A stretch of 64,000 nucleotides of DNA from NCBI GenBank assembly GCA_029555965.1, contig JAKQHY010000173.1, positions 1 through 64,000 on the forward strand, in the 5' to 3' direction. Within the stretch, counting starts at the first letter, position 1, and every line of letters begins with the position of its first letter. Of the stretch, positions 19,951-47,876 are shown piece after piece. The notes under the pieces are model-generated. The model did no database searches, was not told where the DNA came from, and worked only from the letters and a program-made list of their open reading frames with translations. Made by a program: the position numbers and the translations under genes. Origin of the DNA: Chloroflexota bacterium (lineage in GTDB: Bacteria > Chloroflexota > Anaerolineae > B4-G1 > SLSP01).

Positions 19951-20714
19951 CTCCTGAACCCTTTCCCTGGCCCCAGGGCCAACGTTGCGCCGTCTCACTG
20001 ACCTACGACGACGGGCTGCCTGTCCACTATGAAGTGGTCGCCCCATTGTTGGAAGACGCGGGGCTGCGCGCCACATTCTACGTGATGGGCACGGTCGCGC
20101 GCCATGCGCCTGAACGCTGGCGCGCGCTGGCGGCCGCCGGCCACGAACTCGGCAGTCACAGCCTTTTTCATCCGTGCCGCCGCGAACCGCCGGAGAACTA
20201 CGCCTGGCTCCCGCCCTACTATGACCTCTGCGACTACACCCCCGAACGCTGGGGCGCGGAACTGGACGTCGCCAATCTGGTGCTGCATCTCATAGACGGT
20301 AAAACCGAGCGCACGTTCGGCAACACCTGTTGCAACACCACCATCGGGCGCGGCGCGGCGGAAATTTCGATGGACGCCCTCTTGCGCGAACGCTACGTCG
20401 CTGCGCGCGGGCCGATGAACTACCGCGTCGCCATGCCTCAAACCGGCATCAACTTGATGCAGGTGGGACACTTCCAGGGCGACGGACGCTCCTTTGCAGA
20501 CATCCGCGCGGAAATTCAGCGCGCCCGCGACCTCGGCGGTTGGATCGTGTGGATGACTCACGGTGTCGGAGCAGAAACGCACCATCTTTCTATGGATCCC
20601 GCCGAACACGAACACCTCATCCGCTGGCTGGGCGCGAACCAAACCACAATCTGGACCGCCCCATTAGTGGATGTAGCAAAACACGTGCGCCAAACCACCG
20701 CCGAACACTCGTAA
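19947..20714 (+). CDS. Polysaccharide deacetylase family protein
   Basis: AVSLTYDDGLPVHYE, ELGSHSLFH. Confidence 0.85.
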   Translation: MTPEPFPWPQGQRCAVSLTYDDGLPVHYEVVAPLLEDAGLRATFYVMGTVARHAPERWRALAAAGHELGSHSLFHPCRREPPENYAWLPPYYDLCDYTPERWGAELDVANLVLHLIDGKTERTFGNTCCNTTIGRGAAEISMDALLRERYVAARGPMNYRVAMPQTGINLMQVGHFQGDGRSFADIRAEIQRARDLGGWIVWMTHGVGAETHHLSMDPAEHEHLIRWLGANQTTIWTAPLVDVAKHVRQTTAEHS

Positions 20715-20740
20715 TTCGCTATTCGCTATTCGCTATTCGC
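20712..20740. repeat. Heptanucleotide array TCGCTAT x3
   Basis: taattcgctattcgctattcgctattcgc. Confidence 0.85.
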
Positions 20741-36342: not shown

Positions 36343-39033
36343 ATGAAAAACAAATTCTTTAGCATAGCATTCAGTGTAGTATTAGTCTTATCGGCCATTG
36401 GATCGCCCATAACCGCGCAAGAGCCTCCTCCCTCCAAAGAAAGCCTGGCGGTCACATCTTCCCCAATCTCTTTAGTGAATCAAATAGGCGGGGGAACCTA
36501 TAGTGTGGCGGTGCAAGGAAATTACGCTTATATGGGGGTGGGGACACGGCTCGTGGTCTTGGATATTACCAATCCTACTAACCCTATTGCTATTGGACAA
36601 ACAGAAGTCATATCAAGTCTGATCACCGACATAGAAATTTCAGGCAGTTATGCCTATGTTGCCGAGAGCCGACGAAGTGATTATTCTGGCGGGGGGCTGC
36701 GAGTCATTAATATTTCCGATCCGACCCAGCCCCATTCTATCGGCTTTTACGACACGCCGGGTGACGCGCTCAACTTAGCGGTATCGGGAAATTATGCCTA
36801 CATTGCGGATAACTACCAGGGATTGCGCGTTGTGGATATTTCCAATCCGTCTCTTCCTGTCGAAGTGACCACTGTGATGCCCAACACATCTGCCGGGAGC
36901 ACCACAGATGTCGTCATTGCTAACCAACGCGCTTATGTGGCAGAAAGCTACGACCATGGTCTGCACATTTTGGATATTTCCGATCCGACAAATCCCGTGA
37001 CTCTGGGACGCTACGCGGACCGTGCCGTCCATGGCGTCGCCGTCGCGGGCAATTACGCATATCTGGCCTGCACCGGTACACCCACAGGCGGGTTGAGCGT
37101 CGTCAACATTAGCAATCCAGCAACGCCTCAAGAGATCAGTTTCTACGAAGCCGAGGTCTATTCCAGTTGGGTGCAAGTGCAAGGGAATTACGTTTATCTC
37201 TCGACCCAGGAGCAAATAGGTTCACTATCCCCAAGAAACGCCTATGTGCATATTGTAAATATTGCCAACCCCGCGGCGCCCAAACAAGCGGGCCTCTTTT
37301 TCTTGCCCTACGAAGATTCTACCTTCACTTCAAGCAGAGCCTACCCATTCGCTCTGACGGCCAATCGGGTTTATTTCGCCGCCGGGATGAATGGATTAAG
37401 AATTATGGATGTCGCGGACCCGGCTACCCCGGTCACGGTCGGCGCGTACAATATCCCTACCCGTCCAGGAGCAATAGCGGCAGCAGAAAATTACCTCTAC
37501 CTCGCGGACGAACACTGGACAATTTATGCCAACAACCATGATGTTGGCGATCTACACATTATGGATATCGCCAATCCTACAGAACCCCATACCGTAGGAA
37601 TTTATGATACACAAGGTGTTATGGATAGCCTTGCTGTTTCTGGTCAGTACATCTTGGCTGGCAAATATTCCAGATTCGATGGGAGCACTTACGAAGCCAG
37701 CGAAGGTGGTATGCAAATTCTCAATATGGCCGATCCTACCCACCCTGTTGAAACCGGATTTTATGACAGCGAGCAAAGAACGGTCAATGCCATTGCCTGG
37801 CAAGGCAATTATGCCTATCTCAACGCCGGGGATGGGGGAATGGGGAAAACGCATTTTGTAGACATAGCGAATCCGCCCACCCCACACTATGCAGGAGAAT
37901 ATGTGGGAGAGTCTGGCTCTGTGGCGTATGACATAAACGTATCTGGGGATTACGCTTACCTAGTCAAAGAAAATCTGGATATCATCAATATTGCTACGCC
38001 ATCTACACCAACATATATCGGAAACTACGAGGTTAGGAACTCTCTCCATTCAGTAGCGGTATCTGGGAAGTATGCATATACTGGCGATAACCGGTTGCTG
38101 ATTATTGACATCACTAACCCCGCCAATCCTACGCTAACCGGTTCCTTAAGTGTAGGAAACAGTTCCAACCTGATCTATGACATCGTGATTGCTGATGGGT
38201 ATGCCTACCTGGCGGTGCAGGATTCAGGACTCCATGTCGTCAACATTGCCGATCCCCAAAACCCGGTCGAAGTGGCCCGCTACACCTTACCTGGCACACT
38301 TAACAGCGTTGCTGTTGCCGGCAACACCGTCTATGTCACCGCGGAGACGGCCGGAATTTACATCTTCTCGGTGACGCCGCCTTCCACAATCGCAGGGCAG
38401 GTGACGGATGCCAAAGGAACGCCAATTGTCGGTACGGTGATTTCCGCCAACAGCCTCTACACCGCCACCACCGATGCCAGCGGCGTCTATACCCTCACCA
38501 ACATCCCGGCGGGCAACTACATGCTCACGCCCTCCAAAGATGGCATCCTGTGGTGGGAACCGGCACAACGCAATATCACAGTGCCGCCAATCGCAACCGG
38601 TCAGAACTTTGTGGGTCATCATATTCGCAAGACTGTCGCCTCTACCGGGGAAAAAATTGTTCGCACAGGCGATATCCTCACCTATACGATTACCCTTGCC
38701 TACCCAGAACCGGCTACGGTGTCTTTGTTCGATCCCATCTCGCACTACACCGACTACATAACCGGATCATTGCAGGCCCCTGCCGGCGTCAGCTTTGATA
38801 TGCAAACGCACGCCGTTACTGGAACCCTATCCCTACCTGACAGCAATCCGGTCGAAATCGCCTTTGCGGTAGAAGTACAAGTGAGTGGCACCATTGGTTT
38901 CGCACCGGTGATCACCAATCGTGCCTGCTTGCGCTTGCCCGGACAAACCCTATCCGATTGCGAGTGGTCGAACACCGTCTCCAACCCCACTTACTTGTGG
39001 TTTACCTACCTTCCCTTTGTAACTCGTAAGTAG
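36343..39033 (+). CDS. Secreted LVIVD-repeat beta-propeller protein with carboxypeptidase-regulatory-like and DUF11-like C-terminal domains
   Basis: Signal peptide; repeated GNYAY..-G..V.DI.NP..P..; ends TYLPFVTRK. Confidence 0.85.
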   Translation: MKNKFFSIAFSVVLVLSAIGSPITAQEPPPSKESLAVTSSPISLVNQIGGGTYSVAVQGNYAYMGVGTRLVVLDITNPTNPIAIGQTEVISSLITDIEISGSYAYVAESRRSDYSGGGLRVINISDPTQPHSIGFYDTPGDALNLAVSGNYAYIADNYQGLRVVDISNPSLPVEVTTVMPNTSAGSTTDVVIANQRAYVAESYDHGLHILDISDPTNPVTLGRYADRAVHGVAVAGNYAYLACTGTPTGGLSVVNISNPATPQEISFYEAEVYSSWVQVQGNYVYLSTQEQIGSLSPRNAYVHIVNIANPAAPKQAGLFFLPYEDSTFTSSRAYPFALTANRVYFAAGMNGLRIMDVADPATPVTVGAYNIPTRPGAIAAAENYLYLADEHWTIYANNHDVGDLHIMDIANPTEPHTVGIYDTQGVMDSLAVSGQYILAGKYSRFDGSTYEASEGGMQILNMADPTHPVETGFYDSEQRTVNAIAWQGNYAYLNAGDGGMGKTHFVDIANPPTPHYAGEYVGESGSVAYDINVSGDYAYLVKENLDIINIATPSTPTYIGNYEVRNSLHSVAVSGKYAYTGDNRLLIIDITNPANPTLTGSLSVGNSSNLIYDIVIADGYAYLAVQDSGLHVVNIADPQNPVEVARYTLPGTLNSVAVAGNTVYVTAETAGIYIFSVTPPSTIAGQVTDAKGTPIVGTVISANSLYTATTDASGVYTLTNIPAGNYMLTPSKDGILWWEPAQRNITVPPIATGQNFVGHHIRKTVASTGEKIVRTGDILTYTITLAYPEPATVSLFDPISHYTDYITGSLQAPAGVSFDMQTHAVTGTLSLPDSNPVEIAFAVEVQVSGTIGFAPVITNRACLRLPGQTLSDCEWSNTVSNPTYLWFTYLPFVTRK

Positions 39034-39139: not shown

Positions 39140-42121
39140 ATGAACATAACTTTTACCCTCAATCATACCCCGCGCACTTTCACCATCACGCCCAATGAAA
39201 CCCTCCTCCACCTGCTGCGGCGCAGTGGCATTAAAAGCGTCAAGTTCGGCAGCGAGGACGGAACGGATGGGTACAGCACGGTGCTGCTCGACGGCAAGCT
39301 CTGCAACAGCGTGGTCACGCTGGCGGCGCAAGTCAACGGGAAAACGGTGCTCACCGTTGAAGGGCTGAGCGGCCACCAGCATCCCGGCTGGAACCCCAAA
39401 GAGGAATTGCACCCACTCCAGCGCGCCTTCATCGAGACCGGCGCGATCCAAAGCGGCTACGACACCCCCGCGCTCATCCTCGCCGGCAAGGCCCTGCTCG
39501 ACCGCAACCCCGCCCCCACCGAGGCCGATGTGCGCGACGCCATCAGCGGCATCGTCTCCCGTGAAACCGGCCACGCCAAGCCGGTGCAGGCGATTTTGCT
39601 GGCGGCGAAGTATTTGCAGGAAGCAGGCAGCGAGACGCAAGATGCAGGAAGCAAGATGCAAGATGCAAGAAGCAAGATGCAGGATGCAGGAAGCGAGAAT
39701 CCAGATTCGCAATTCGCAATACGCAATTCGCAATTCGTTGTCGTCGGTCAATCCCTCCCCAAAGTGGACGCGCTCAAGCTGGCGCAGGGGAAGGCGGCGT
39801 TTGTGGCGGATTTCGAGCGACCGGGGATGCTGTACGCGAAGATTCTGCATAGCCCGCACGCGCACGCGCGCATCACGGCGATGGATACAAGCCGCGCCGA
39901 AGCGCTGCCGGGCGTCCACGCGGTGCTGTGCTACAAGAACGTACCGCGCGTCGTTTTCTCGACGGCGGGGCAGTCGTATCCCATCCCCGGCCCGCTGGAT
40001 TATGTGAGCTTCGACTCGAAGGTGCGCTACGTGGGCGACCGCGTGGCCGCCGTGGCCGCCGAGACGCCGGAGATCGCGGAGCAGGCGCTGACGCTCATCA
40101 AAGTGGCATACGAAGTGTTGCCGCCCGTTCTCAACCTGGACGCGGCCATGGCCGAGGGCGCGCCCGTCATCCACGATCAGCCGGATTACGTCAACTTTGG
40201 CGACAGCGATCCGACGAAGAACCTCGTCGCCAAAGTCCGCATTGACATCGGCGACGTGGACGCGGCGTGCGCGCAGGCCGAGTACGTCTTTGAAACGCAA
40301 GTCGAGACGCAGAAGATGAAGCACGTCCCGCTGGAACCCTGGGTCACGCTGACCTACTGGGACGAGGACGACCGGCTGGTTATCCTGACCTCGACGCAAG
40401 TGCCGTTCCATGTCCGCCGCATCCTCGCGCCGGTGCTGGGGCTGTCGGAGGGGCAAATCCGCGTCATCAAGCCGCGCGTCGGCGGGGCGTTTGGCAACAA
40501 GCAGGAAATCTACGAGGACATCCCCGCGCACCTCACCATCGCCACAGGTCGCCCGGTGCGGCTGGAGTTGACCCGCGAGGAGCAGTTCATCTACACCACC
40601 ACCCGCCACCCGATGCGCGTGAAGTTCCGCGTGGGCGTGCAGAAGGATGGAACGATGGTCGCCCAGGATATGCGCGCGTGGAGCGACACCGGCGCATACG
40701 GGGGCCACGGCTTGACGGTGCTCGGCAACACCGGCCACAAGACGCTGCCCATCTACAACACACCCAACGTCCGCTTCTGGGGCGAGACGTACACGACGAC
40801 CCGCCCGCGCGCGGGGGCGTATCGCGGATACGGCGTGACGCAGGGCGTCGTCGCCACCGAGACGCTGCTGACCGAGATCGCGGTCAAGCTGGGGATGGAT
40901 CCGCTGGATTTCCGCCTGAAGAACATTATCGAGCCGCACAGCGAGAACATTATGAGCAAGGCGTGGAGCGAGGGCCGCGAAGCGAAGGGCGAGATGATCG
41001 AGACATGCGCGCTGCGCGAGGCTGCCGCGCAGGGGGCCGCCGCCGTCGGCTGGCGCGAGAAGTACGGCAACCCGGCGTGGCATGAAATCCCCGGCAAACC
41101 GCATCTGCGGCGCGGCATCGGCGTCGCGTTCCTGATGCAAGGCTCCGGCATCCCCAACCTGGACATGGCCGCTGCCAGCATCAAGATGAACGACGACGGC
41201 AGCTTCAACCTGCACATCGGCGCCACCGACCTGGGCACCGGCTCCGACACCGTCCTGGGGCAAATCGCCGCCGAGGTCATCGGCTGCACGCTCGACAAGC
41301 TCATCATCCGCTCGTCCGACACCGACGTAACGCCCTTCGACAAAGGTGCGTATGCGTCCAGCACCACCTACATCAGCGGAGGGGCCGTGGCCCGCGCTGC
41401 CGAAGAGGTCGCCCGCCAGATCAAAGCCGTCGCCGAAGACATGACCGGCGTGCCCGCCGACGAGATCACCCTGCGTCACAACCGCGCCTGGCTCACCCCG
41501 CCCCCCCTAACTCCTAACTCGCAACTCGCAACTCCTGACTCGCTTTCTTTCCGCGACATCGCCATCTACTCCCTGCACCAGAGCAACCAGCACCAGATTA
41601 TGGGGACGGCCTCGTACCTCAGCCCGGTCAGCCCGCCGCCGTTTGGCGCACAGTTTGCCGAAGTGACCGTGGACATCGAGACGGGGCAGGTGACATGCGA
41701 CCGGCTGCTCATCGCGCTGGATTCCGGCGTCATCGTCAACCCGCTCACGGCGGGCGGGCAGGCCGACGGCGGGATGCACCAGGCGCTCGGCTACGCCCTC
41801 ACCGAGGAGCTGATCTACGACCAGGACGGCCGCACCGTCAACCCGCGCTTCGACGACTACCGCGTCTTCCGCGCTGACGAGACGCCGCCGCTGGAAACGA
41901 TCTTCGTGGAAAGCTACGAGCCATCGCACCCGGTCGGCGTCAAATCCGTAGCCGAGATCGTCGTCAATGGCGCAGCGCCGGCCATCCTCAACGCCCTCTA
42001 CGACGCGACGGGCGTGATGATGAAGCAAACGCCGGTCACACCGGAAAGGGTGTGGCAGGCGCTGCGGGCGGCGGCCACAGTGCCGCATCAACCCACTTTA
42101 GCGTCACAACTGGCAACCTAG
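39140..42121 (+). CDS. Xanthine-dehydrogenase-like fusion (degenerate 2Fe-2S domains plus molybdopterin domain)
   Basis: N-terminal ferredoxin-like and helical 2Fe-2S domains fused to XDH large subunit (VGGAFGNKQE, GAYRGYGVTQG, GVKSVAEIVVNGAAPAI); cluster Cys missing. Confidence 0.9.
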   Translation: MNITFTLNHTPRTFTITPNETLLHLLRRSGIKSVKFGSEDGTDGYSTVLLDGKLCNSVVTLAAQVNGKTVLTVEGLSGHQHPGWNPKEELHPLQRAFIETGAIQSGYDTPALILAGKALLDRNPAPTEADVRDAISGIVSRETGHAKPVQAILLAAKYLQEAGSETQDAGSKMQDARSKMQDAGSENPDSQFAIRNSQFVVVGQSLPKVDALKLAQGKAAFVADFERPGMLYAKILHSPHAHARITAMDTSRAEALPGVHAVLCYKNVPRVVFSTAGQSYPIPGPLDYVSFDSKVRYVGDRVAAVAAETPEIAEQALTLIKVAYEVLPPVLNLDAAMAEGAPVIHDQPDYVNFGDSDPTKNLVAKVRIDIGDVDAACAQAEYVFETQVETQKMKHVPLEPWVTLTYWDEDDRLVILTSTQVPFHVRRILAPVLGLSEGQIRVIKPRVGGAFGNKQEIYEDIPAHLTIATGRPVRLELTREEQFIYTTTRHPMRVKFRVGVQKDGTMVAQDMRAWSDTGAYGGHGLTVLGNTGHKTLPIYNTPNVRFWGETYTTTRPRAGAYRGYGVTQGVVATETLLTEIAVKLGMDPLDFRLKNIIEPHSENIMSKAWSEGREAKGEMIETCALREAAAQGAAAVGWREKYGNPAWHEIPGKPHLRRGIGVAFLMQGSGIPNLDMAAASIKMNDDGSFNLHIGATDLGTGSDTVLGQIAAEVIGCTLDKLIIRSSDTDVTPFDKGAYASSTTYISGGAVARAAEEVARQIKAVAEDMTGVPADEITLRHNRAWLTPPPLTPNSQLATPDSLSFRDIAIYSLHQSNQHQIMGTASYLSPVSPPPFGAQFAEVTVDIETGQVTCDRLLIALDSGVIVNPLTAGGQADGGMHQALGYALTEELIYDQDGRTVNPRFDDYRVFRADETPPLETIFVESYEPSHPVGVKSVAEIVVNGAAPAILNALYDATGVMMKQTPVTPERVWQALRAAATVPHQPTLASQLAT
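39616..39737. repeat. In-frame heptanucleotide array in the xdh interdomain linker
   Basis: aagatgc/aggaagc/aagatgc/aagatgc/aagaagc/aagatgc/aggatgc then gcaattc-type units; encodes GSETQDAGSKMQDARSKMQDAGSENPDSQFAIRNSQF. Confidence 0.9.
41507..41543. repeat. Second in-frame heptanucleotide array in xdh
   Basis: ctaactcctaactcgcaactcgcaactcctgactcgc encodes LTPNSQLATPDS. Confidence 0.85.
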
Positions 42122-45282: not shown

Positions 45283-45338
45283 GTGGGAGTAGGGATTAGG
45301 AATCCCACTCCCTACCCCCTACTCCCTAATCCTTACCC
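45283..45338. repeat. Heptanucleotide-type array with inverted arm
   Basis: gtgggagtagggattaggaatcccactccctaccccctactccctaatcctta. Confidence 0.7.
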
Positions 45339-47876
45339 CACTTCCGCCTTCTTCAACCGCAAACTGTTCGTCACCACGAACACACTGCTGAAGGCCATCG
45401 CCCCGGCAGCCAGCATGGGATTGAGCAGGCCCAGCGCCGCCGCCGGGATGAGCATAACGTTGTAGAAGAACGCCCAAAACAGGTTCATCTTGATGGTGCG
45501 CAGCGTCTTCCGCGAAAGCGCCACGGCGCGCACTACGCCGCGCAAGTCGCCAGACATCAGGGTGATGGGCGCGGCGGCCATCGCTACGTCGGTGCCCGTG
45601 CCAATAGCAATGCCCACGTCGGCCTGAGCCAGCGCGGGCGCGTCGTTGACGCCGTCGCCGACCATTGCGACGACGGCCGGTTTTCCGTTAACCGGCGCTG
45701 CTTGCAACTTCTTCACCTCGGCGGCCTTGCCTTCCGGCAGCACCTCGGCCAGCACGCTCTCAATGCCCACCTGCTGCGCAATCGCCTCGGCGGTCTGGCG
45801 ATTGTCGCCGGTGATCATCGCCAAATGCAATCCCATCCGGCGCAACGCGGCTACCGCCTCCACCGAGCCTTCCTTGAGCGTATCCGCCACCGCGACGACG
45901 CCGCACACCTGCCCATCCACCGCCACCAACATGGCCGTCTTCGCCTCTGCCTGCAAGCGCTCCACCACCGCCTGCAATCCGTTCAGCGGATAGCCGCGCG
46001 ACGCCATCATGCGGGCATTGCCCACCGCCACCGCGCGTCCGTCCACCTCAGCGGAGACGCCCAATCCCGCCTCCGCCTTGAACCCCGCCGGCTCGGAGAG
46101 CGTCAGCCCTCGCGTCGTTGCTTCCGCCCAGATCGCCTCCCCCAGTGGATGCTCGCTCCCTTTCTCGACGGAAGCCGCCAAACGTAAGAGTTCGTCTGGA
46201 GTAATGGGTAATGGGTAATGAGTAATGGGTGACGGTCTCTCCATTGATGACTCATTCCTCATTGCTTCTAACTCCTCACTCCTCACTCCTAACTCCTCAC
46301 TCCTCACTCCTAACTCGCCCACCACCACATCCGTCACCGCCGGCTGCCCCTGGGTAATAGTGCCAGTTTTGTCGAGAACAACGGTGGTGATGCGCCCGGC
46401 GCGTTCCAGAGCTTCGCCGCTTTTCAGCAGAACGCCCAACTCGGCGCCCTTGCCGGTCCCCACCATCACGGCCGTCGGCGTCGCCAGCCCCATCGCGCAC
46501 GGGCAGGCGATGACCAGCACCGCCACCATATTGATGAGCGCGCGTGTGAAAGCGTCCACGTCCGCATTGACCGGCAGCGGCGTCCCCAGGAAATACCAGC
46601 CCAGGAACGTGAGCGTGGCGACGCCGATCACGATGGGCACGAACACCGCCGAAATCTGATCCGCCAGCTTTTGGATGGGCGCCTTGCTGCCCTGCGCCTC
46701 CTCCACCAGGCGGATGATCTGCGCCAGCGCGGTCTCGCGGCCCACCTTCGTCGCCTCAAATTTAAGCAGCCCCAGTTTGTTGAGCGTCGCGCCGATGACC
46801 GGCTGCCCCGGCCCCTTTTCCACCGGCAGCGACTCGCCGGTCAACATAGATTCGTCCACCGCGGAGCGGCCTTCGATCACCACGCCATCCACCGGGATTT
46901 TCTCGCCGGGCCGCACCAGCACCACATCGCCCACGCGCACCGCATCCACCGGGATTTGCAGCTCGACGCCATCGCGCACCACCTGCGCCGTCTTTGCCTG
47001 CAAACCCATCAGCTTCTTGATGGCCTCCGAGGCGCCGCCCTTCGCTCGCGCTTCCAACAGCTTGCCCAGCCGCACCAGGGTAATGATAACCGCCGATGTT
47101 TCCAGATAGACGTGCCCCTCAAGCCAGCCAAACACGATGGGCAGCGAATAGAGATACGCCGCCGTTGAGCCGAGGGCAATCAAAACATCCATGTTGGCCG
47201 CGCCGTTGCGCAGGGCCTTAGTCGCGCCCACGTAATACTGCGCGCCCACGTAAAATTGCACCGGCGTGGCAAAGGCCAGCATCACCCAATGCACCCAATC
47301 CGCGTGCGCCCACATCCCAAACGCGCCAAAATCCCGCGCCATCGAGAACGCAAACAGCGGCAGGGTGAAGATCAGGCCGATGACGAGCATCCGCTGTTGA
47401 TGGGCGATTTCGGCAGCGCGCGCCCTGGCCTCCGCGTCGTCGGCGTCGCCGCCCAACTCCAACGCCTCGAAGCCGGCCCGCGCTACTGCCGCGCGGATTT
47501 CGGCCTGGCTGACGAGGGTGGGCACGTAACGCACGCGCGCTTTCTCGGTCGCCAGCGCGATCTGCGCCTCCAACACGCCTTCCAGAGCGAGTAGGGCCTT
47601 CTCCAACCGCCGGGCGTCGTTATCGTCGCCCAGCCGCTTGAGGATGAGGTCGGCCTCCCCGGCAGCGACGCCGTAACCCGCGCGCTCCACCCGCCCGATG
47701 ATGTCGGGCAGGAAGACCAGCGTCGGGTCAAACTCCACCGTGGCGCGCTCCGAGGAAAGGTTGACGACGGCGCCGGTCACGCCGTTAACCTTCTTCAAGT
47801 TGCGTTCCACCGTCGCCACACAGTTGGCGCACGTCATCCCGGTGATGGGCAGGGTGATGGCTTTGGTTTCGGACAT
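45333..47876 (-). CDS. copA: Copper-translocating P1B-type ATPase
   Basis: [46 protein letters not shown]. Confidence 0.95.
46201..46318. repeat. In-frame heptanucleotide array inside copA
   Basis: gtaatgggtaatgggtaatgagtaatggg...taactcctcactcctcactcctaactcctcactcctcactcctaactcg; encodes [23 protein letters not shown]...[11 protein letters not shown]. Confidence 0.92.

Follow-up and report, generated by a model that had tools for sequence, protein, structure and literature searches.

An XdhD-like molybdoenzyme of a Chloroflexota bacterium without [2Fe-2S] cluster ligands: a probable purine dehydroxylase with a dismantled Fe-S relay

Features of the locus

The window, i.e. the whole stretch of 64,000 nucleotides of Chloroflexota DNA that was analyzed, carries an open reading frame (ORF) for a fused protein related to the xanthine oxidase (XO) family, in which, to our knowledge, two [2Fe-2S] clusters are treated as a defining and obligatory relay. 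The positions aligned with the eight cysteine ligands of cluster-bearing (eight-Cys) relatives are designated C1 to C8. The features of the ORF are the following.

39140..42121, + strand: ORF of 993 amino acids with ATG start, a fused pseudo-[2Fe-2S] domain and Mo domain, XdhD-like (ORF, profile matches, alignment)
39251..39313, + strand: former distal (plant-type) cluster site, with S38, D43, S46 and V58 at C1 to C4 (alignment)
39449..39463, + strand: former proximal site, first half (QSGYD), with Q104 (invariant, probable pterin contact), S105 for C5 and D108 for C6 (alignment; PMC10673323)
39557..39565, + strand: former proximal site, second half (SRE), with S140 for C7, R141, and E142 for C8 (alignment)
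39615..39737, + strand: linker, encoded by 7/21-bp tandem repeats (sequence; alignment)
39785..40123, + strand: a/b hammerhead domain PF01315, with N267 and F291 in common with the other double-loss clade (Pfam)
40217..40927, + strand: MoCoBD_1 PF02738, with F451-G452, Q455 and R562, and the family-specific W401 and Q482 (Pfam, alignment)
40970..40972, + strand: E611, aligned with E606 of E. coli XdhD, an active-site Glu specific to XdhD and proposed to orient urate (alignment; PMC12507026)
41042..41887, + strand: MoCoBD_2 PF20256 (Pfam)
41954..41956, + strand: E939, catalytic base, in the column of the D. gigas AOR GVGE Glu (alignment)

When aligned with eight-Cys relatives, the protein retains 0 of the 8 [2Fe-2S] ligands. 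The codons at the distal site are AGC (Ser 38, C1), GAT (Asp 43, C2), AGC (Ser 46, C3) and GTG (Val 58, C4), and those at the proximal site are AGC (Ser 105, C5), GAC (Asp 108, C6), TCC (Ser 140, C7) and GAA (Glu 142, C8). C55, the sole Cys within residues 1-165, is not conserved. The motifs quoted in the initial annotation are present at their place in the forward-strand ORF 39140-42121, and the replacement of the ligands by other residues is borne out, but their number is eight, not seven. No displacing gap occurs in the alignment with the close eight-Cys relatives, so the ligands have not moved. In the Pfam search PF01315, PF02738 and PF20256 scored far above cut-off and Fer2_2 was still matched (61 bits); a plant-type Fer2 domain was not reported. 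The strong Pfam matches and the invariance of E939, F451-G452 and R562 agree with the earlier description of the Mo domain as intact. Sequence evidence thus supports an XO-family molybdoenzyme that would be barred from the usual wire leading from Mo over FeS I to FeS II.

The linker (39615-39737), whose sequence differs widely between relatives, is made of 7- and 21-bp tandem units (TGCAAGATGCAGGAAGCAAGA, ATTCGCA), variants of which occur elsewhere in the window (ATTCGCT at 20707-20738; ACTCGCA at 41517). An insertion akin in kind, i.e. repeat-like, is found in the soluble part of a P-type metal ATPase ORF (45333-47876). The gene that directly precedes the Mo gene (36343-39033) encodes a large surface protein of the choice-of-anchor B (LVIVD) type and is not conserved beside the orthologues. 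In several genomes (L145, L146, L199) of f1, the window's own family, the Mo gene is followed by a DUF4914 gene and by a member of cl3, a small family of about 130 aa with no Pfam match.

Conservation of the cluster-free state

The ligands are absent from all 21 f1 genomes with a readable N-terminus, and the residues at C1, C5, C7 and C8 are identical across them. S105, S140, R141 and E142 are invariant among 22 close sequences, a further sequence of family f3 (L063) having Ala at 140. Also invariant are Q104, E939, F451-G452, R562 and the E606 equivalent, the last being Glu in 15/15 closer family members aligned, including E611 of the window, and Arg in the more distant L134. Pairwise comparisons within f1 give a dN/dS of 0.03-0.10 for the N-terminal domain, with similar values for the Mo domain, which is the best-conserved part of the protein; the ratio of N-terminal to Mo domain identity within groups is no worse than in cluster-bearing relatives. 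The nearest folds to an AF2 model of residues 1-165 (pLDDT 66) are Fe-S subunits of Mo hydroxylases (TM about 0.7). The full-length AF2 model (pLDDT 55) is too poor for use, and the case for Moco binding is therefore made from residue conservation. Two further Mo hydroxylases in the same genome (one fused, one split) have intact ligands.

These being MAG data, a single genome would not suffice against an assembly error or a decaying pseudogene. Independent MAGs concur, the frame is open, dN/dS is low and the replacements are fixed, which makes an artefact of either kind extremely improbable. Clean substitution rather than decay, as initially proposed, is confirmed by the 21/21 f1 genomes, the low dN/dS and the preserved fold and active-site residues. 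As these comparisons show at the level of sequence, the domain has stayed folded and constrained and the Mo site intact, while both [2Fe-2S] sites were lost. Moco, whose Mo bears a sulfido or selenido ligand in the XO family, is probably still bound by the protein, a prediction drawn from conserved residues.

Classification and gene neighborhood

The best NCBIfam matches of the ORF were TIGR03313 and XdhA models, all under cut-off. TIGR03313/XdhD gave 697.6 bits (cut-off 1101.9; E. coli XdhD 2122.8) and TIGR03311 415.8 bits (cut-off 830.45), so that TIGR03313/XdhD, and not TIGR03311 as initially suggested, is the nearest named family, with both scores sub-cut-off. The protein is classified as XdhD-like by sequence comparison because the neighbors of its eight-Cys relatives match the Chloroflexota uricolytic cluster described in PMC12507026. 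The eight-Cys loci of family f7 comprise SsnA (over the NCBIfam cut-off), an F420-NADP oxidoreductase (Npd), CofE, CofD, CofC, an LLM oxidoreductase, an FAD_binding_5 subunit, the Mo protein, XdhC, a second XDH and YqeB. According to the same paper, SsnA is a marker of uricolysis, and Chloroflexota SsnA clusters carry an F420-type luciferase-family enzyme (PMC12507026). SsnA is above cut-off in the window's genome (G000:C77:44285-45610, 488.9 bits) and in nearly all related genomes (f11 and f35 give weak matches only); in f1 and f3 it lies apart from the F420 genes.

E. coli K-12 XdhD (NP_417357.1) reads NSDDGFGFAGSDAIIFNGNIVNAS and QSGYNDPA...FSRDAGW, with 0/8 Cys, so that no ligand remains. 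DNA matching E. coli xdhD is present in 5155 of 5426 complete E. coli genomes; the RefSeq name is Mo/Fe-S-binding subunit. The enzyme is reported to reduce urate to 2,8-dioxopurine with NADH and to copurify with a YgfM-sized protein (PMC12507026). The missing ligands are not mentioned (search terms: iron-sulfur, cysteine) in the main text of this 2025 paper or in the commentary PMC12990295, which does not prove that others are unaware of them. In the open-access literature searched, no account was found of Fe-S-less XO-family enzymes or of the missing XdhD ligands.

The neighbors and the characterized E. coli XdhD together suggest a purine substrate, and by this analogy the window protein most likely converts urate to 2,8-dioxopurine by removal of the 6-oxo group. 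Against urate, the substrate may have changed, given W401, Q482, M393, H395 and N943, which are specific to f1 or to f1/f3.

SelD and YqeB were each above cut-off in 0/8 f1 genomes, and the window organism's own genome has no SelD over cut-off. A selenium dependence is accordingly not supported for f1, where the enzyme is probably not selenium-dependent, since both proteins are absent above cut-off. Both are present in the sampled f4, f7 and f35 and in f3, except for one f3 genome without YqeB. Several selD genes of relatives (G035, G037, G041, G042, G044, G045, G159, G262 and G246), all above cut-off, contain one in-frame TGA and presumably encode a selenocysteine-containing SelD.

The lack of the maturation factor YqeB and of SelD above cut-off (0/8 f1 genomes each) would also suit a pseudoenzyme or scaffold that has lost Moco binding and catalysis and is kept for another role, loss of the electron path being a conceivable first step in this direction. 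Such a role is very unlikely, because no variation was seen at any of the catalytic and cofactor-contact positions checked, conservation is highest in the Mo domain, XdhC is found in f1 genomes, and the ligand-less E. coli XdhD is reported to be active (PMC12507026).

Cluster states and phylogeny

Five cysteine states were distinguished among the Chloroflexota rows of the alignment.

Both clusters kept: 35 rows
Distal site lost, proximal kept: f4, 21 rows (DSDG/DTDG, or Ala last)
Proximal lost, distal kept: f3, the sister family of f1, 8 rows
Both lost: f1, 15 full-length rows
Both lost, with other residues: f10/f11/f35, 5 rows (STAD and S[SA][DC]E)

A tree was built from the Mo domain alone, leaving out the trait columns. 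Exactly four state changes are required, and every one of the four loss groups is split from the remaining rows by a branch with 100% bootstrap support. On this tree, the loss is seen to be stepwise and repeated from an eight-Cys ancestor: the common ancestor of f1 and f3 had already lost the proximal cluster when f1 went on to lose the distal one, and f4 lost the distal cluster only. A topology uniting f1 with f10/f11/f35, as one shared double loss would require, was rejected (AU p = 7e-5, or 5e-38 when f3 was included). In the same tests neither the joining of E. coli with f10/f11/f35 (p = 0.21) nor that with f1/f3 (p = 0.068) was rejected. Further Cys-less homologues, as envisaged in the initial annotation, do exist; the loss is not unique, being stepwise and recurrent in Chloroflexota and shared by E. 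coli K-12 XdhD. The Fe-S-free state of XdhD-like molybdoenzymes is, on this comparative evidence, real, conserved and repeatedly evolved. The two double-loss clades share the convergent changes D267N and L291F; these were considered as a special signature and set aside, as they make up only two columns and other pairs of groups share 1-4.

The proximal-loss lineages f1/f3 and f10/f11/f35 have Ser at C5 and Glu at C8, and E. coli XdhD has Ser and Asp. The recurrence of Ser at C5 and of an acidic residue at C8 in separate lineages, and the conservation of replacements that are mostly potential oxygen ligands (S105, D/E108, S140, E142), could point to a re-metallated relay in which Ser, Asp and Glu bind another metal. 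The residue sets vary too much between lineages for a shared metal site: L063 has Ala in place of S140, the proximal residues read S-S/A-D/C-E in f10/f11/f35 and S-N-S-D in E. coli, and the last distal position is Val, Ile, Gly, Ala or Asp. A differently metallated enzyme, one of the outcomes initially predicted, is thus not shown, and we regard it as unlikely.

FAD partner and electron path

In many of the eight-Cys, f4 and f11/f35 loci, the Mo gene is preceded by an FAD_binding_5 gene. Its absence from the Mo locus of f1 and f3 suggested that the FAD subunit had been lost there; this was rejected, since the gene occurs at another locus in 5/8 f1 and 6/6 f3 genomes sampled, in most cases with a 4HBT gene as its neighbor, as in f7. 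In the window's own 85%-complete assembly, a YgfM-like FAD subunit was not found. The trans copies cluster with the partner-type FAD subunits and apart from the canonical ones, and the FAD subunit tree follows the same groups as the Mo protein. The f1 trans subunit (L204, L205, L206, L207, L208) adjoins the genes of a PnrA-like ABC transporter (Bmp, ATPase, permeases), a purine-nucleoside-like type, and has a 4HBT thioesterase gene directly upstream in 3/5 loci.

The f1 FAD copies have GGAW in place of GGTD, and three f7 genomes have degenerate GG motifs. The f2 partner has no FAD-binding part: in genomes L170-L173, the FAD-type gene upstream of the eight-Cys XdhD-like proteins keeps the C-terminal region only, and its product probably binds no flavin. 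The links lost thus differ by lineage (FAD motif in f2 and part of f7, distal cluster in f4, proximal cluster in f3, both clusters in f1 and in f10/f11/f35), and the relay has been lost piecemeal. No sampled lineage lacks both the FAD motif and the Fe-S ligands, the events being too few to test this pattern.

Electrons from NAD(P)H or F420H2 might still reach Mo through the YgfM-like FAD subunit by an Fe-S-free route, with FAD nearer to the pterin, by domain motion or by a diffusible carrier. Such a bypass would explain why a trans FAD subunit following the same groups in its own tree is kept in f1 and f3, why the FAD gene adjoins the Mo gene in f11/f35, and why no lineage in the sample lost the FAD motif and the Fe-S ligands together. 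In XDH-like architectures, however, a long distance separates FAD from Mo, and only the clusters bridge it; the f1 motif is itself altered (GGAW for GGTD), and the window's 85%-complete assembly has no FAD subunit. E. coli XdhD, ligand-less, copurifying with a YgfM-sized protein and active with NADH, speaks for the bypass, but a no-NADH control was not found described in the available text of PMC12507026. Taken together, the bypass is possible though doubtful. A non-redox enzyme, as initially predicted, is one option only and is not shown, given the FAD subunit kept in Cys-less lineages and the redox reaction with NADH reported for E. coli XdhD-YgfM (PMC12507026).

Proposed mechanism

The window protein most likely binds Moco and dehydroxylates purines, its Fe-S relay having been dismantled. 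By motif position, we take Q104, which precedes C5, to be the pterin-linking Gln of XDHs. The former proximal site would then act as a cluster-free clamp on the pterin, with Q104 kept and Ser and acidic residues filling the cluster cavity. In XDH, this Gln connects the amino group of the pterin with the proximal cluster, and a Q102 variant has been studied (PMC10673323). Because the proximal cluster is absent, the normal electron exit is cut.

As a tentative proposal by analogy, Mo would bypass the Fe-S wire, two electrons being exchanged directly at the Mo site, e.g., with a second purine. That purine would be hydroxylated at the same Mo, in a closed loop like that of pyrogallol-phloroglucinol transhydroxylase, a member of the DMSO reductase family that performs a net redox-neutral hydroxyl transfer at Mo. 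The FAD subunit could be retained for stability or occasional resetting. A purely closed loop would not need FAD, yet the partner is kept in 5/8 f1, 6/6 f3 and f11/f35. E. coli XdhD-YgfM made 2,8-dioxopurine with NADH, so that FAD may still feed Mo (PMC12507026). In the same study, xanthine was not consumed by an E. coli xdhA deletion mutant, and this speaks against its being the second purine in E. coli. Direct exchange is nevertheless favored over the FAD bypass, a new metal site and a pseudoenzyme, in this order. The explanation as a whole (stepwise Fe-S loss, intact Mo site, retained Moco and purine activity, with direct electron exchange at the Mo site as its less likely step) has about an even chance of being correct, its support for the Chloroflexota members being sequence-based.

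In a bolder and rather improbable version, the clade would be the first of the XO family without net electron exchange, Mo cycling between VI and IV within one site as one purine position is hydroxylated and another dehydroxylated, for example in converting xanthine via urate to its isomer 2,8-dioxopurine. All relay links would then be dispensable, and lineages could have lost different ones.

The family offers a natural series on a constant Mo domain (both clusters, distal only, proximal only, none), and the Cys-less XdhD of E. coli K-12 makes the need for an Fe-S wire in a Mo hydroxylase testable in a laboratory strain. The results also bear on urate reduction by gut bacteria and on automatic annotation, which spreads the Fe-S label.

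Comparison with known systems

E. coli XdhD (TIGR03313, partner YgfM) shares with the window protein the fusion of N-terminal and Mo domains (40% identity over 922 positions), the absence of all eight Fe-S Cys, Ser at C5, an acidic C8, E606 and an SsnA in the genome. It differs in that the window gene is beside neither SsnA nor an FAD gene and scores below the TIGR03313 cut-off, that f1 genomes lack YqeB and SelD, and that the f1 clade has W401, Q482, M393, H395 and N943. The eight-Cys Chloroflexota XdhD-like proteins (e.g., L073, L078, L112) are 55-57% identical over the whole length and have the same catalytic residues and E606 equivalent, but keep all eight ligands and are located in the SsnA/F420/FAD cluster. 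The selenium-dependent xanthine dehydrogenase of TIGR03311 has the same fused Fe-S and Mo layout, whereas the window ORF is without ligands and under the cut-off. Among solved structures, the alpha subunit of 4-hydroxybenzoyl-CoA reductase (1rm6) and D. gigas AOR (1sij/1vlb) are the best matches for the Mo domain and the fused architecture, at low identity; unlike the window protein, each has two [2Fe-2S] clusters, and the former also works reductively. Pyrogallol-phloroglucinol transhydroxylase differs in fold and family and serves as an analogy for the hypothesis only.
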